DNA from: Candidatus Latescibacterota bacterium | GTDB lineage: Bacteria; JAAXHH01; JABIQT01 | NCBI GenBank assembly: GCA_018667995.1 | Contig: JABIQT010000744.1 | Span: 1-5,487, forward strand | Length of the DNA stretch: 5,487 nt | Reading direction: 5' to 3' | Part shown: positions 102 through 5,487 of the stretch, piece by piece | How the letters are laid out: each line of letters starts with the position of its first letter | How positions within the stretch are numbered: position 1 is the first letter of the stretch | Position numbers and translations under genes: made by a program | The notes under the pieces: model-generated | What the model was told of the DNA's origin: nothing | Databases searched by the model: none | The model's input: the letters and a program-made list of their open reading frames with translations, nothing else

Positions 102-926
102 CTAATCTTTTAAATTAGGTGTTCTATCCAGCAATTCCATGGGCTGAACGATCTGCCGGCGCTCCGGAGTCAGTCGCTCCAGCAATGCAGGGGACGGTTC
201 GTAGCCAAACCGAAAAATCCCATAGGAAGGTCCGTATCGGTAAATGACAACCCGCCGTGTCGCCTCGTTGGTCCTCCTGGCTGACCCATGGGACAGCGTG
301 TCGACGAACAGTAGCGCATCCCCGGCATTCATGTACACTTCCTCTGCCCCCTCGATTCCGTCGACCGACGCACCGGCGGCCATCCGATGCTTGAGCACAT
401 CGGGATGCTCGAAATTTGACTTGTGACTGCCAGGGATGACCATGGTGCCTCCGTCGCCCGGTCCGATATCGGTCAGAGCGATTAGGATATTTACCTGGCC
501 GCACATAAACCTTCCGTTCAAGTAGCGATATTGATTACGCTTCGCACCTGCGAAACCGCCAGAGTGAATGCCGATGGCTTCTCCCTGCTGTCGGAAGTTC
601 GCGAAGTTTTCGTCTATGAAGAGTGCACCGTGGTTATAGTCGAAGGTACCTTCACCCCCGATGAAGTGTCTTACCTTATCGATCCAGGATGGGTGATCGA
701 TTAGAGCCTCGAATGGGGTTCCGGCTTCGTAAATCTGCTGATAGTTCAATCCGTCCGTGGTTCCGTACTGGTGCGCATGGACGTATCCATACCATTCGCC
801 AGGTGTCATTGTTGGTATCGCGTCCAGACTGCCGTTCAAGGCGGCGACCTCGTTTGCAGAAAGCGCCCCCTCCAGTTTTAAGAAACCCCTGAGATCGAAT
901 AAATAGATGTCCAGATCAGTTACCAT
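102..926 (-). CDS. PhyH-family protein with His-x-Gly in place of the His-x-Asp iron motif
   Basis: A 274-residue cytosolic member of the phytanoyl-CoA dioxygenase family, only distantly similar to the other PhyH protein in this window. The core reads GIHSGG (His121, Ser122, Gly123), NGRFMCGQVNILIALTDI, PGDGGTMVIPGSHKSN (around 156-171), then the distal iron His213 in LSHGSARR and Arg224 or Arg225 in ATRRVVIYRY for 2-oxoglutarate. The Asp or Glu of the canonical His-x-Asp/Glu triad is therefore Gly. This is the change that creates a chloride site in Fe/2OG halogenases, but I recall a large uncharacterised PhyH subfamily with HGG at this place and the same PGDGG and PGSHK blocks, so halogenation cannot be assumed. 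The ATG at 926 is well supported by AGGAGA just upstream, which overlaps the stop of the copper monooxygenase gene. It is the last gene of the run; no hairpin terminator is visible after it. Role in the operon unknown. Confidence 0.85.
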   Translation of the reverse strand: MVTDLDIYLFDLRGFLKLEGALSANEVAALNGSLDAIPTMTPGEWYGYVHAHQYGTTDGLNYQQIYEAGTPFEALIDHPSWIDKVRHFIGGEGTFDYNHGALFIDENFANFRQQGEAIGIHSGGFAGAKRNQYRYLNGRFMCGQVNILIALTDIGPGDGGTMVIPGSHKSNFEHPDVLKHRMAAGASVDGIEGAEEVYMNAGDALLFVDTLSHGSARRTNEATRRVVIYRYGPSYGIFRFGYEPSPALLERLTPERRQIVQPMELLDRTPNLKD

Positions 927-930
927 GCTT

Positions 931-936
931 TCTCCT
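931..936 (-). promoter_or_regulatory. Ribosome binding site of the His-x-Gly PhyH gene
   Basis: AGGAGA on the minus strand, four bases before the ATG at 926 (five from GGAG). It is the best Shine-Dalgarno match in the window. It overlaps the TAG stop of the preceding gene (937-935), so terminating ribosomes would be placed directly for re-initiation. It fixes the start of the downstream gene. Confidence 0.8.
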
Positions 937-2272
937 ATTCCTGTAATGTCTCCAGAGAACGTCCCCGTGACCGCTCTGCTATCGCAGCCTGATAATCCTC
1001 ATCCTTCATATAGGTGATATTAACCCAGGCATGTGCCATCTCATCTATCGTTCGGTCGCCCCACCCCACCCACTGATCCGCATCAGGATTGTCACGATTG
1101 GCAACGGTGTTGTCGTGCCAGGCTGTGAAACGCAAAGTGGTACCAGCCGGTAGCAGCGGGGCTACGTGGTCGGCATAAATGTAGTTATTGTGCCAATTGA
1201 ACTGAAAGTTATTCACGTGGCTCAGAAGACGGACTGTCCCATCCGGCAATATCGCTTCCATGGACATGGCCTTACCTCTGAGATGCATATGGGGCTGAAA
1301 GTTCTCGATTCTGCCGGCCCGCTGCATCACATGATGCCCTTGATTTCTGGTAATAGTCCTGGGCGGGATATCCAGGTTTCGCGGATCACCGCTTATCACG
1401 TTGAATAGGCCAAGATGCTGCCTGAACCTTGGTACCACGCCATCCGGGTAAAAGTAAATGGCCAGTTCAATCGCTGTCTCAATCTCCTCACCGACCGCGT
1501 GATGATGGATATCCCAGAGGATCTGCGAATCTGGGCGCATGAGTTTCCCCGTGTCGGCCCGCATCATCTCGCCCTGTTTGCCAACTGCCCACTCCATAAA
1601 GAGCCCCGCATCGACGCCTTCGATACTATTGGTACGTTGGGTCGGAGTCGCTTCATCCTGCTGAAGTTTTGCGATCGCATGGTGTGTTATCCGTCTACCG
1701 GAACGCGTTGAAGGCCGAATCTCTATAGCTCGCACCCATCTCTCGCGAGTGATGCCAGTCTCCGTAATTGGACGATACCAGACATCAGCCCCACTGGTCG
1801 GCATGGTATAAACCGGAGATGTAATTACGAGGTCAGGAGGACCTAGCGATTCTGCAAAGAGCCATACATCCCCCTTGCTCCATGTCCTGGGAGCGGGCAT
1901 GTCTTCCGGGTTACCCCTTGGGGCGCCTTCGGCTACCCACCGCAATACAGTCTCGATCTGCGTATCGGTCATGGATCTGTCATTGCTGAAATCCTGAATG
2001 CCCACACTCTTGTCGATATGCCAGGGAGGCATTTCACCCGATAACACAACGCGATTGATGGCTCGGGCCCATGGACGGACCTCGTCATAACCCACCAACG
2101 ACATGGGTCCCATGGCCCCCTCTCGATGACAGGACTCGCATTTTTCCTGAAATATGGGTGCCACATGGCGAGAATATGTGACCGTCTGGGCCAATACCGT
2201 GGGCACATCGTGTGTGAAAGCCAAGCCAGCGGCAGATGCAATCAGGATCTTTATCGATCGCGAAAAGGACAC
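935..2272 (-). CDS. Exported cytochrome c / PHM-like copper monooxygenase fusion protein
   Basis: A 445-residue protein with an N-terminal export signal (hydrophobic ILIASAAGLAF, probable cleavage after VLA near residue 28), so it acts in the periplasm or at the outer surface. The first domain is a c-type cytochrome: CESCH at residues 45-49 binds haem, and Met81 in MPPWH is the likely axial ligand. The second is a type II ascorbate-dependent copper monooxygenase fold. Its copper ligands appear in the order of peptidylglycine alpha-hydroxylating monooxygenase (PHM): HH at 197-198 and one His of the HHH run at 256-258 (CuH site), then HMH at 328-330 and Met412 in IDEMAHAW (CuM site). The spacings of roughly 60, 72 and 82 residues resemble those of PHM. 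The attached haem may replace ascorbate as electron donor (inference). Start chosen at GTG 2272, with GGAG nine bases upstream; TTG 2299 is an alternative that lengthens the signal region by nine residues. Substrate unknown. Confidence 0.85.
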   Translation of the reverse strand: MSFSRSIKILIASAAGLAFTHDVPTVLAQTVTYSRHVAPIFQEKCESCHREGAMGPMSLVGYDEVRPWARAINRVVLSGEMPPWHIDKSVGIQDFSNDRSMTDTQIETVLRWVAEGAPRGNPEDMPAPRTWSKGDVWLFAESLGPPDLVITSPVYTMPTSGADVWYRPITETGITRERWVRAIEIRPSTRSGRRITHHAIAKLQQDEATPTQRTNSIEGVDAGLFMEWAVGKQGEMMRADTGKLMRPDSQILWDIHHHAVGEEIETAIELAIYFYPDGVVPRFRQHLGLFNVISGDPRNLDIPPRTITRNQGHHVMQRAGRIENFQPHMHLRGKAMSMEAILPDGTVRLLSHVNNFQFNWHNNYIYADHVAPLLPAGTTLRFTAWHDNTVANRDNPDADQWVGWGDRTIDEMAHAWVNITYMKDEDYQAAIAERSRGRSLETLQE

Positions 2273-2359
2273 AACCGTGAACTCCGTTATCCGTGTCAAA
2301 TCATAGCAGAAAAGTCATCATAGGATCCATAGAGAAGTAGGAAACTACATTTATAGCGT
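2273..2359 (-). other. Longest internal gap of the operon, between PhyH and the copper monooxygenase
   Basis: This 87-base AT-rich spacer is the only real gap in an otherwise overlapping or nearly touching gene run. It contains two TATGAT hexamers (around 2305-2300 and 2322-2317) and a TATAAA close to the PhyH stop, all of which resemble -10 elements, but none has a convincing -35 hexamer at 16-18 bases. No strong hairpin is visible. It could hold an internal promoter or a processing site, but nothing here is conclusive. Confidence 0.3.
2282..2285 (-). promoter_or_regulatory. Probable ribosome binding site selecting GTG 2272 as start of the copper monooxygenase
   Basis: GGAG on the minus strand with a nine-base spacer to GTG at 2272. 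The upstream alternative, TTG at 2299, has no purine-rich site before it (a pyrimidine-rich stretch instead). Starting at 2272 gives a standard signal peptide beginning MSFSRSIKILIAS, which supports the choice. Confidence 0.55.
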
Positions 2360-3220
2360 TCAATTGCTCAATTCACGATCAGGCGAAGTGCGATATACCA
2401 CCTGATTTCTATTGCTGTCAGCCCGTTCGCCTGGTTTCCGACTGCCTAGCGTTTCATCAATTACTGGACGCGCAGTTTCGTCGCAAGCTGAATCGTCGAT
2501 ATGCATACCATCCTCATAGTAGGTAATACCCATGACTTCCCTCATCCGGTTGGTTGTGTTGCGGCCTGCTGAATGAAGGACCCAGTGGTTGTGAAGCGAC
2601 GCTTCACCAGCTTTCAAGGATGGCTTGAAAACCTCTATGGCATGTTCGTCAATATATCTCTCATAGTACTGCTGGGAATCGTCGTGAATGCCCCTGGGGC
2701 CAAATCCTTTCTTACGGTGCGTCCGTGCCGCAAAGCTGAGCGGTCCCATATCGTTCGTGATATCAACGAGGGGAATCCACAGCGTCAACACATTGTCGCC
2801 GTATAGTGGCCAATGGGGTCCATCCTGATGCCAGGGAGTGATGCGACTATCTGGTTCCTTGAACATGGGTTTATCGTAGTAAATGCGCACGCCATCAACG
2901 CCCATCAACTCCGCGACTATCTTTCCGAATCTCCGAGCGAGAATGAATCTGGCAGCCCGGGGATCGGTCTCGCGTAGATTGAAGGCCTGGAGGAACACCC
3001 TGGAAAAATCGTCCGCGGGTCGATCTGCCATCGCCACAACTTCGCCAAAATGCGCGTGGGCCGCCTCGTGGATTACCTCTCTATAGACCTCTACTTCCCG
3101 TGTACTCAACACCCCTGGAAGATGGATAAAACCGAGTTCTCGGAAGTCATTAATCTGATCGATAGTAAGATCATATGCCTCCTCCAGGCCAGGCAGGAAA
3201 CCGGCTCCATCATCCGTCAT
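2360..3220 (-). CDS. Phytanoyl-CoA dioxygenase (PhyH)-family Fe(II)/2-oxoglutarate oxygenase, canonical iron site
   Basis: This 286-residue cytosolic oxygenase would couple 2-oxoglutarate decarboxylation to hydroxylation of an unknown substrate. The iron facial triad is complete: WHQDGPHW supplies His131 and Asp133, and LHSAGRN supplies His216. Arg227 in NRMRE, 11 residues later, is placed to bind the 2-oxoglutarate carboxylate, the same spacing as in human PhyH. The double-stranded beta-helix core is visible around TLWIPLVD, and the N-terminal FRELGFIHLPGVLS is the usual PhyH opening. The ATG at 3220 lies inside the end of the M19 gene (ATGACGGATGA overlap); only a GGGG run about seven bases upstream could act as a ribosome binding site, so coupled translation is likely. 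The iron site is intact, so I expect ordinary hydroxylase activity. Hydroxylation of an N- or O-methyl group would release formaldehyde, which fits the HPS-PHI neighbours, but the substrate cannot be read from sequence. Confidence 0.87.
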   Translation of the reverse strand: MTDDGAGFLPGLEEAYDLTIDQINDFRELGFIHLPGVLSTREVEVYREVIHEAAHAHFGEVVAMADRPADDFSRVFLQAFNLRETDPRAARFILARRFGKIVAELMGVDGVRIYYDKPMFKEPDSRITPWHQDGPHWPLYGDNVLTLWIPLVDITNDMGPLSFAARTHRKKGFGPRGIHDDSQQYYERYIDEHAIEVFKPSLKAGEASLHNHWVLHSAGRNTTNRMREVMGITYYEDGMHIDDSACDETARPVIDETLGSRKPGERADSNRNQVVYRTSPDRELSN

Positions 3221-4304
3221 CGCAGGGCCCCGCTGTATCGGGGAGTACTTCTTTCAGAATTCTGATATAGTTACCTCCTAGAACGGCTGCAATATCAGAT
3301 TCAGAGTATCCGGATTCCGTCAGTCCCTCGGTTAACCACGGCAGGCAGGCCGTATTGAAATGCGTGCCGATGCCCACGCCATCGATACCCATGACGTCCA
3401 CCGCATACTTGATGATCTCAAGGGTTCGAGTCATATCGTCGTCCGATACGCATCCATAGGGGGCATCGCCCGCAGGTCGTGAAATGGGCGGCATCACACC
3501 CAGAAGACCTCCCGTATTGACCAGAGCCCTCATTACTGAGTCTGATGTGCTTCGGCTACTGCTATCAAAGTGTTTCGGAATAGAATGGGAATCGATGACG
3601 GGCTTTGAGGATACTTCGATGGCGTCCATGGCACATATCTCGTTTGTATGTGCAATGTCGACCAGGATACCACATCGATTCATCTCTCCTATTACCCGAA
3701 CCCCAAACTCCGTAAGACGCCCACCGGAGCGAAGCTCATCGTGCCCGTCGTAGCCCAGATCACGCCCGGACATGCTAATGGTGACCATACGGAGCCCCAA
3801 TCTGGCGAACATCCTCAAAATCCCGGGGGCATCCCCAAACCAGTCAGACCGATTGGCTCCCATTAACAGGCCTACCCGGTCTGGGTTCGCCAATAAATCG
3901 TCCAGGTCAGATTTTGTACGAATGAGGATAACGACATCCTTATTAGCCTCTACATCGCACAGAAAACGGTCCAACAGTGCAAGTACTACCTGGGTAGGAT
4001 GCTTGAAGGATGATGAGTGGTACATGCGCTCGGGAGATTCACGCCCAGGTCTGTATTCGCTCTGCTCCGGCCAAAGAGCCGCAAAGTTGTCATCATAGAT
4101 AACCGGTCCCCCCTTGCACATCACCAGACGCATGCCCCATTCCTTGAACTTAACGAAGTCACCACGACAGGTATCATCCTGTCGCTTCCCCAAGTCGATG
4201 TGATCCAGGACAAAACGGGGGTGGGTCAGGTTCAGTCCAAGCATATCACATGTGGCAAATCTGGAATCAAATCCAGCAGCATTTCTACAAACTTCGTCTT
4301 TCAT
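3210..4304 (-). CDS. Peptidase M19 (renal dipeptidase-fold) family protein with degenerate metal site
   Basis: Family members are usually zinc dipeptidases with an amidohydrolase-like TIM barrel. The M19 scaffold is clear: ILRMFARLGLRMVTIS, then LTEFGVRVIGEMNRCGILVDIAH (residues about 197-219), DSHS (His240), SSSRS (Arg251) and the C-terminal VLGGNYIRIL. By comparison with human renal dipeptidase, both later metal histidines (His219 and His240) and the substrate Arg are kept. The N-terminal metal pair His-x-Asp is replaced by TCD (residues 18-20), the bridging Glu is not visible in the GLLMGANRS segment, and the late Asp of GxDFD is His315 in GTHFN. No signal peptide is seen, so it is probably cytosolic. 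The chosen start is ATG 4304, 16 bases after the PHI stop; a TTG at 4328 would add eight residues and overlap PHI. Neither has a good ribosome binding site. The stop overlaps the next gene by 11 bases. Substrate unknown; it may not be a peptidase. Confidence 0.82.
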   Translation of the reverse strand: MKDEVCRNAAGFDSRFATCDMLGLNLTHPRFVLDHIDLGKRQDDTCRGDFVKFKEWGMRLVMCKGGPVIYDDNFAALWPEQSEYRPGRESPERMYHSSSFKHPTQVVLALLDRFLCDVEANKDVVILIRTKSDLDDLLANPDRVGLLMGANRSDWFGDAPGILRMFARLGLRMVTISMSGRDLGYDGHDELRSGGRLTEFGVRVIGEMNRCGILVDIAHTNEICAMDAIEVSSKPVIDSHSIPKHFDSSSRSTSDSVMRALVNTGGLLGVMPPISRPAGDAPYGCVSDDDMTRTLEIIKYAVDVMGIDGVGIGTHFNTACLPWLTEGLTESGYSESDIAAVLGGNYIRILKEVLPDTAGPCDDG

Positions 4305-4320
4305 GGCAGTTTGAATGATC

Positions 4321-4875
4321 CTATTCAAGATTCGCGTGTAGCGTGAACATGTCGGCGGAATCGCGGCCCGTCCTATTCATGATCTCGAGAATGAGCGCAT
4401 CCAGTGTCAACAACAGGCATTGTTCGAACAGTGCCCCCATGGGCTGGATCGAGTCTTTCTCTGTCGCGGCGTCTATCTTGGGCGATGGCGCGGGGATTTC
4501 CAGTATCATGTCCGCCAGAGATCCAATGGGGGAGCTCCTACAAACAGTGATCAGACATATGACGGCGCCGATCTCTCGTGCTCGTTTAGCGTGGCTGAGC
4601 AGGCTGGCCGTAGCACCCGATCCTGAGCCGATCAGCAAGACATCGTGCTCGCCTATTGCCGGTGTAACCGTCTCGCCCACGACCGACACATTGAGCCCCA
4701 GATGCATCAATCTCATGGCAAAGCTCCGCATCATCAGCCCTGACCTGCCCGCTCCTGCAGTAAAAATCCGGCGTCCGGACATGAGGGTATCCAGAATCCG
4801 ACCAATGGCCGCTTCATCCAAACCAGACAGAGTGCGATTGAGTTCACTAATCATGGCGTCTAAGTGTCTTTTCAT
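4321..4875 (-). CDS. hxlB: 6-phospho-3-hexuloisomerase (PHI), SIS domain
   Basis: The product isomerises 3-hexulose 6-phosphate to fructose 6-phosphate, the second RuMP step, in the cytosol. At 184 residues it has the usual length for PHI and is a single SIS (sugar isomerase) domain. Diagnostic stretches are FTAGAGRSGLMMRSFAMRLMHLG around residues 38-60 in two conserved blocks, the sugar-phosphate-binding GSGSGAT near residue 83, QPMGALFEQ around residue 143 with the family's catalytic Glu, and the C-terminal MFTLHANLE, which matches PHI proteins closely. The ATG at 4875 shares ATGA with the HPS stop, so translation is probably coupled; the upstream Shine-Dalgarno match is weak. Finding both PHI and HPS makes a RuMP role much firmer than either alone. 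Ribulose 5-phosphate formation by the reverse reactions remains possible. A long open frame exists on the opposite strand here but looks like a shadow. Confidence 0.95.
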   Translation of the reverse strand: MKRHLDAMISELNRTLSGLDEAAIGRILDTLMSGRRIFTAGAGRSGLMMRSFAMRLMHLGLNVSVVGETVTPAIGEHDVLLIGSGSGATASLLSHAKRAREIGAVICLITVCRSSPIGSLADMILEIPAPSPKIDAATEKDSIQPMGALFEQCLLLTLDALILEIMNRTGRDSADMFTLHANLE

Positions 4876-5487
4876 GATAGTCCGATCGCTCGTGTATCCG
4901 GCTCCCGATTGAACCGGGCGCGAATCTCTTGGACAGCTCTCGCGGGGTCTGCATGCCCTGTTATGAAACTGCCTACGATCACAATCTCAGGAACATATGG
5001 AGCACATGCGTGAACTAGATCCGGCCCAATACCACCTGCGATAGCGATCCTGGCGGTTGGGGCAGTCTCTCGAATCGCACCCAGATCCGATAGAGAGTTT
5101 TGCCCCTCACGGTCAGTGGCTGTATGCACACAGACATAGTCGGCCCCAATTTTCTGAACTTCCTGCGACCGTGTGACTTTGTCTCGGACTGCCATAAGAT
5201 CGACCATCACCTCACGACCAGACTTCCGGGCCTCGCGTACTGTGCCACTAATGGTCTCATCGTGGGCAGCACCCAGTACAGTCACGATATCCGCCCCCGC
5301 CCCAAAGGCTATAGACGCCTCATATGCTCCGGCGTCCATAATCTTGAAATCAGCCAGTACGACCTGATCCGGAAAACGCGTTTTCACTGAATCGATAGCC
5401 GAGACCCCCTCACGCAGGATCAGTGGCGTGCCCAATTCTACGATATCAACTTGACCACTCAGTAATTCAACCATTGATAGCGCCTCA
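4872..5487 (-). CDS. hxlA: 3-hexulose-6-phosphate synthase (HPS), 5'-truncated by the window edge
   Basis: This enzyme condenses formaldehyde with D-ribulose 5-phosphate to give D-arabino-3-hexulose 6-phosphate, the formaldehyde-fixing step of the RuMP pathway, in the cytosol. It belongs to the orotidine-phosphate decarboxylase (OMPDC) superfamily of TIM barrels. Visible signatures are VDIVELGTPLI near the N-terminus, the catalytic DxKxxD motif as DFKIMD (about 5331-5351), the strand GADIVTVLGAA, then YVCVHTATD, and the phosphate-binding AIAGGI and VIVGSFIT loops near the C-terminus. The ATG at 5474 is probably not the start: the frame stays open upstream to the edge and reads EALS, which aligns without gaps to B. 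subtilis HxlA as I remember it. About 13 N-terminal residues, including the first-strand Asp of the ALD motif, should lie outside the window. The TGA stop overlaps the next gene's ATG as ATGA. The related 3-keto-L-gulonate-6-phosphate decarboxylase is less likely because of the HPS-like VHT region and the PHI neighbour. Confidence 0.93.
   Translation of the reverse strand, partial: EALSMVELLSGQVDIVELGTPLILREGVSAIDSVKTRFPDQVVLADFKIMDAGAYEASIAFGAGADIVTVLGAAHDETISGTVREARKSGREVMVDLMAVRDKVTRSQEVQKIGADYVCVHTATDREGQNSLSDLGAIRETAPTARIAIAGGIGPDLVHACAPYVPEIVIVGSFITGHADPARAVQEIRARFNREPDTRAIGLS

Follow-up and report, generated by a model that had tools for sequence, protein, structure and literature searches.

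The HPS-PHI gene pair in the window (the whole stretch of DNA analysed, a complete 5,487-bp contig, C258, of the draft genome G000) is best explained by capture of formaldehyde without a dedicated local pathway, a reading that we hold to be about equally apt to be right or wrong. The pair would operate toward fixation, as a sink for detoxification and salvage, and its formaldehyde would come from demethylations spread over the genome, with PhyHa, an Fe(II)/2-oxoglutarate oxygenase encoded in the same run of genes, as a possible local source. The other three products, namely PhyHb, an M19-like protein and a probably exported copper oxygenase, are more likely neighbors that serve other functions than participants in a single pathway. 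Because we found this gene order in a single genome, the run is probably not a dedicated pathway for methyl removal. The most interesting part, and one worth following, is the conserved H-x-G family to which PhyHb belongs.

Six collinear minus-strand reading frames fill the contig. The initial annotation had described six same-strand genes with overlaps or small gaps, and all six frames and their junctions were confirmed:

5486-4872, minus strand: HPS (HxlA); TIGR03128, 218.7 bits, cut-off 200
4875-4321, minus strand: PHI, 6-phospho-3-hexuloisomerase (HxlB); TIGR03127, 223.2 bits, cut-off 160
4328-3210, minus strand: M19-family protein, membrane dipeptidase-like, metal site degenerate; PF01244, E 5.5e-47
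3220-2360, minus strand: PhyHa, Fe(II)/2-oxoglutarate oxygenase; PF05721, E 9e-24, HQD...H...R site
2299-935, minus strand: fusion of cytochrome c and a copper monooxygenase of PHM/DBH type, probably exported; CxxCH, copper ligands, fold match
926-102, minus strand: PhyHb, PhyH protein with H-x-G instead of H-x-D; PF05721, E 8e-20

The contig end cuts the 5' end of the HPS gene, and about 11 N-terminal positions are absent from HPS. HPS and PHI overlap by 4 bp, PHI and M19 by 8 bp (with the ATG at 4302 as the M19 start codon, the two would instead be 18 bp apart), and M19 and PhyHa by 11 bp. A 60-bp gap lies between PhyHa and the copper protein gene, and an 8-bp gap between the latter and PhyHb. 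Such short distances make co-transcription plausible, and we infer that the contig represents the 3' part of a run that is probably co-transcribed. Speaking against our preferred explanation, the close overlaps between HPS, PHI, M19 and PhyHa suggest that in G000 these four genes, if not more, have a common role. Promoter and terminator scans of the window returned sites no more common than in shuffled sequences.

The draft genome measures 6.06 Mb and is 85% complete. Its division into 1,165 contigs, its estimated contamination of 4% and the fact that no relative has the same gene order would all fit an assembly artefact, in which pieces that lie apart in the organism were joined into one short contig. 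We consider this highly improbable, given that the overlapping genes are in frame, with no broken frame at any junction, and that every gene in the window has its best match, among the genomes searched, in the same bacterial order.

HPS and PHI both score above the curated equivalog cut-offs of TIGR03128 and TIGR03127 and are adjacent, as expected of a RuMP pair, and their identities as first annotated therefore stand. HPS is 53% identical to its counterpart in G011 and 50% to that in G001; for PHI the identity to G001 is 61%. The two enzymes convert formaldehyde and ribulose 5-phosphate to hexulose 6-phosphate and then to fructose 6-phosphate. G000 encodes G6PDH and transketolase, that is, another source of pentose phosphate and a means to regenerate ribulose 5-phosphate, which favors the fixing direction. 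Comparisons were made with a set of 16 genomes of the phylum, G000 and 15 others, none of the others from the family of the window; 12 of the 16 (G002-G010, G012, G014 and G015) form one genus, g3. G6PDH and HPS are both present in G000, G001 and G011. A G6PDH family match was not found in any of the 12 genomes of g3, though all 12 keep HPS. The retention of HPS where G6PDH was not found favors a supply of ribulose 5-phosphate in these genomes, and HPS-PHI may serve this purpose in genus g3.

The corresponding explanation for the window is a role in sugar or pentose phosphate metabolism, where HPS-PHI would convert fructose 6-phosphate reversibly to formaldehyde and ribulose 5-phosphate, as in archaea that lack an oxidative pentose phosphate route. 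The oxygenases would then be unrelated neighbors. The initial annotation had held that neighbors pointing to a sugar pathway would count against its formaldehyde proposal, and such neighbors were seen in part: a PfkB-family sugar kinase directly precedes HPS-PHI in G001 and G011, which represent two families of the window's order. A ribokinase (TIGR02152, above the cut-off) occupies the same place in an Anaerolineae genome; the kinase and HPS-PHI loci are L037 5270-7371, L038 5438-7674 and L053 9050-11148. An epimerase/isomerase-like TIM-barrel gene after PHI in G011 and the 12 g3 genomes with HPS and no G6PDH found are also consistent with a sugar role. We nevertheless regard it as unlikely, though a serious rival, for G000, which has its own G6PDH and does not need the HPS-PHI route. 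A search of G000 with the G011 kinase gave no match, which likewise speaks against a sugar role, with the qualification that the genome is 85% complete and that the contig ends exactly where the kinase would lie.

Coupling of HPS-PHI to oxidative demethylation and release of formaldehyde by PhyH demethylases are both already known. In Burkholderia cepacia TM1, HPS-PHI handles the formaldehyde from vanillate demethylation, and HPS and PHI activity rises on vanillate (PMC8879981). Like TM1 with its hxlA and hxlB, G000 combines an HPS-PHI pair with putative oxidative demethylases in one genome, the pair being a proposed sink outside classical methylotrophy. TM1 differs in that its demethylated substrate is known. 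Demethylases of the PhyH family give off formaldehyde, and one PhyH protein of poribacterial origin demethylates 2'-O-methylcytidine and complements an E. coli test strain (PMC12709175). The window's PhyHa and PhyHb share the PhyH family with these FJS/PHYHD1 2'-O-methyl nucleoside demethylases, one tested member of which is poribacterial, but PhyHa has SnoK and MysH as its best solved relatives, at low similarity and with no PHYHD1 chain among the solved relatives listed, and PhyHb lacks the iron carboxylate.

These precedents lend chemical support to the original proposal that the oxygenases feed formaldehyde to HPS-PHI, whereas the occurrence of the run in a single genome and the H-x-G site of PhyHb weaken it. 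A dedicated cassette, where the oxygenases, chiefly PhyHa, would strip the methyl group from a particular N- or O-methyl compound, leaving HPS-PHI to fix the formaldehyde on the spot, is in our judgment quite unlikely. The collinear and overlapping genes, the canonical site of PhyHa and the intact ligands of the copper monooxygenase are consistent with it, as is a PhyH gene near HPS-PHI in G011, which lies ahead of the kinase, though it belongs to another subfamily. On the other side stand the loss of the carboxylate in PhyHb, the degenerate site of the M19 protein, the abundance of PhyH genes in G000 described below, and the absence of the run from every other genome examined.

The initial annotation had proposed to look for co-occurrence of the gene set elsewhere and had named an arrangement unique to one genome as evidence against its reading. 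As far as our data reach, this is the case. The six-gene run did not turn up in any of the other 15 phylum genomes and does not represent a conserved cassette among them, while 19 HPS-family loci from other lineages contained no PhyH gene and provided no second HPS locus with these partners. We also did not find this gene set described in the open-access literature. HPS itself was found in 15 of the 16 phylum genomes (it is absent from G013) and in at least four different gene neighborhoods, which indicates that it functions independently of these oxygenases. Throughout genus g3 (12 genomes), HPS has unrelated genes beside it, and the regions fetched, each 12 to 19.5 kb long, contain no PhyH gene. 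G002 is well assembled, and in it the counterparts of HPS, PhyHa and PhyHb are located on different contigs or more than 1 Mb apart. The orthologues of the window's genes are distributed differently among the genomes, and each gene thus appears to have its own history.

Proximity of PhyH genes to other genes says little in this genome. G000 contains at least 150 PhyH matches, and among the matches listed the family accounts for about 2.6% of its genes. In 2013, Poribacteria were reported to be the only group in which PhyH genes exceed 1.9% of all genes (PMC3909097). By this share G000, which we take for a probable sponge symbiont, is probably poribacterial, though other PhyH-rich lineages besides Poribacteria do exist. 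If the 150 listed matches were evenly scattered, a random 4.5-kb stretch would contain at least one with a probability of about 10% and at least two with a probability of 0.6%. The genes are in fact clustered, with 29% of the listed matches having another one 0.6-3.5 kb away, and two PhyH genes close together are not rare in G000. With PhyH genes both dense and clustered, chance neighbors are to be expected.

The supposed formaldehyde maker of the run with a canonical Fe(II)/2-oxoglutarate site is PhyHa and PhyHa alone. Its H-Q-D ... H ... R site is preserved, with the HQD, the distal histidine and the arginine aligned in all orthologues, and the assignment of two Fe/2OG proteins of the PhyH family in the initial annotation is upheld in full for PhyHa, and for PhyHb as to family membership only, as PhyHb lacks the iron carboxylate. 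PhyHa orthologues with 54-59% identity occur in 12 of the 12 g3 genomes, none of them near HPS. In keeping with formaldehyde release by demethylation, a gene of the N-methyl-L-tryptophan oxidase or sarcosine oxidase type is located no more than a few kb from the g3 orthologue (L115, L116, L117, L121). Enzymes of this type produce formaldehyde. Methylphosphonate hydroxylase was considered as an identity for PhyHa and PhyHb and rejected: the NCBIfam scores, 28.5 bits for PhyHa and 18.8 bits for PhyHb, are far below the cut-off of 500 and represent superfamily background.

The copper protein bears out its first description as a copper monooxygenase fused to cytochrome c, with a CxxCH motif, a PHM/DBH fold and all copper ligands. 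The relevant motifs are CxxCH at residues 54-58, HH at 206-207, a histidine at 265-267, HMH at 337-339 and M421; the histidine and methionine motifs match the PHM ligands in order and roughly in spacing. The protein itself has no Pfam copper match, its relatives (about 32% identity) match PF03712 weakly and just below the cut-off, and a sequence search of the PDB returned nothing useful, so that the class was settled by fold. The structural model (mean pLDDT 69) matches dopamine beta-hydroxylase (4zel) and PHM with a Foldseek probability of 1.00 at about 12-15% identity, and predicts the two-domain PHM/DBH fold with HH/H and HxH/M copper ligands. While fold and ligands are common to these enzymes and the copper protein, animal PHM and DBH rely on ascorbate or cytochrome b561, and the window's protein is instead fused to cytochrome c. 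Its N terminus resembles a signal peptide, which makes export probable. Among the phylum genomes searched, a close orthologue was found only in G013, where the neighbors differ.

The M19 protein retains its family match to PF01244, as first annotated, but it has lost several residues of the M19 metal site. In an alignment to intact M19 proteins from the window's bacterial order, the HxD, the bridging glutamate and a later aspartate are missing and two histidines are kept, which does not amount to the binuclear zinc site of a membrane dipeptidase. The sole orthologue found, in G011 (60% identical; L103 8813-9883), has lost the same residues. This shared loss of zinc ligands suggests that the two proteins probably represent a non-dipeptidase branch of the M19 family.

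In PhyHb, the position of the HxD motif reads H-S-G (H121, G123), and the second histidine (H213) and an arginine (R224) are retained. The protein thus lacks the HxD/E...H triad and its iron-binding carboxylate, and ordinary demethylation by PhyHb is therefore doubtful. H121, G123 and H213 are invariant across eleven sequences, and H-[SCGA]-G was found in every PhyHb relative checked, both in this lineage and in four other lineages (loci including L113, L109, L112, L114 and L169-L174); the relatives from those four lineages read H-[SCG]-G. Among 57 sampled PhyH proteins, a sample biased toward relatives of PhyHa and PhyHb, 40 have HxD and 15 HxG. All 16 phylum genomes encode PhyHb or a relative; the relative in G001 is 47% identical to PhyHb, and those in the remaining 14 genomes are 69-79% identical. 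These relatives never stand beside HPS in the regions seen in other genomes. A plasmid search with PhyHb returned weak relatives only.

The hallmark by which Fe/2OG halogenases are found is HxG/A, a motif that keeps the two histidines and has Gly or Ala in place of the carboxylate residue (PMC11186838), and PhyHb conforms to this definition. We rejected the motif as proof of a halogenase: the Asp to Gly exchange in prolyl 4-hydroxylase yields neither activity, so that the swap alone does not make a halogenase (PMC2767507), and the nearest solved relative of PhyHb, by both profile and fold, is HygX (PDB 4xc9, 4xca, 4xcb, 4zpi; about 23% identity). By our reading HygX, with LHGG in the same region, may likewise lack the acidic residue, but HygX is a biosynthetic enzyme for an antibiotic and no common pathway was seen. 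Confidence of the PhyHb model is below 50 around residues 121-131. The motif data lead us to speculate that PhyHb belongs to a PhyH subfamily with glycine in place of the iron carboxylate throughout, spanning 16 of 16 phylum genomes and at least four other lineages, and that this subfamily could be widely distributed and halogenase-like, or could transfer some other anion, its member here being encoded in one run with formaldehyde-fixing genes; we consider this proposal tentative and on balance unlikely.

If HPS-PHI acts as a formaldehyde sink, it would help to account for the ability of bacteria whose PhyH oxygenases number well above a hundred to withstand the formaldehyde that demethylation would release. 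The split inside a single phylum, between 12 g3 genomes with HPS and no G6PDH found and G000, G001 and G011 with both, is open to testing. The conserved H-x-G PhyH family provides a candidate set of non-hydroxylating iron enzymes in probable sponge symbionts.
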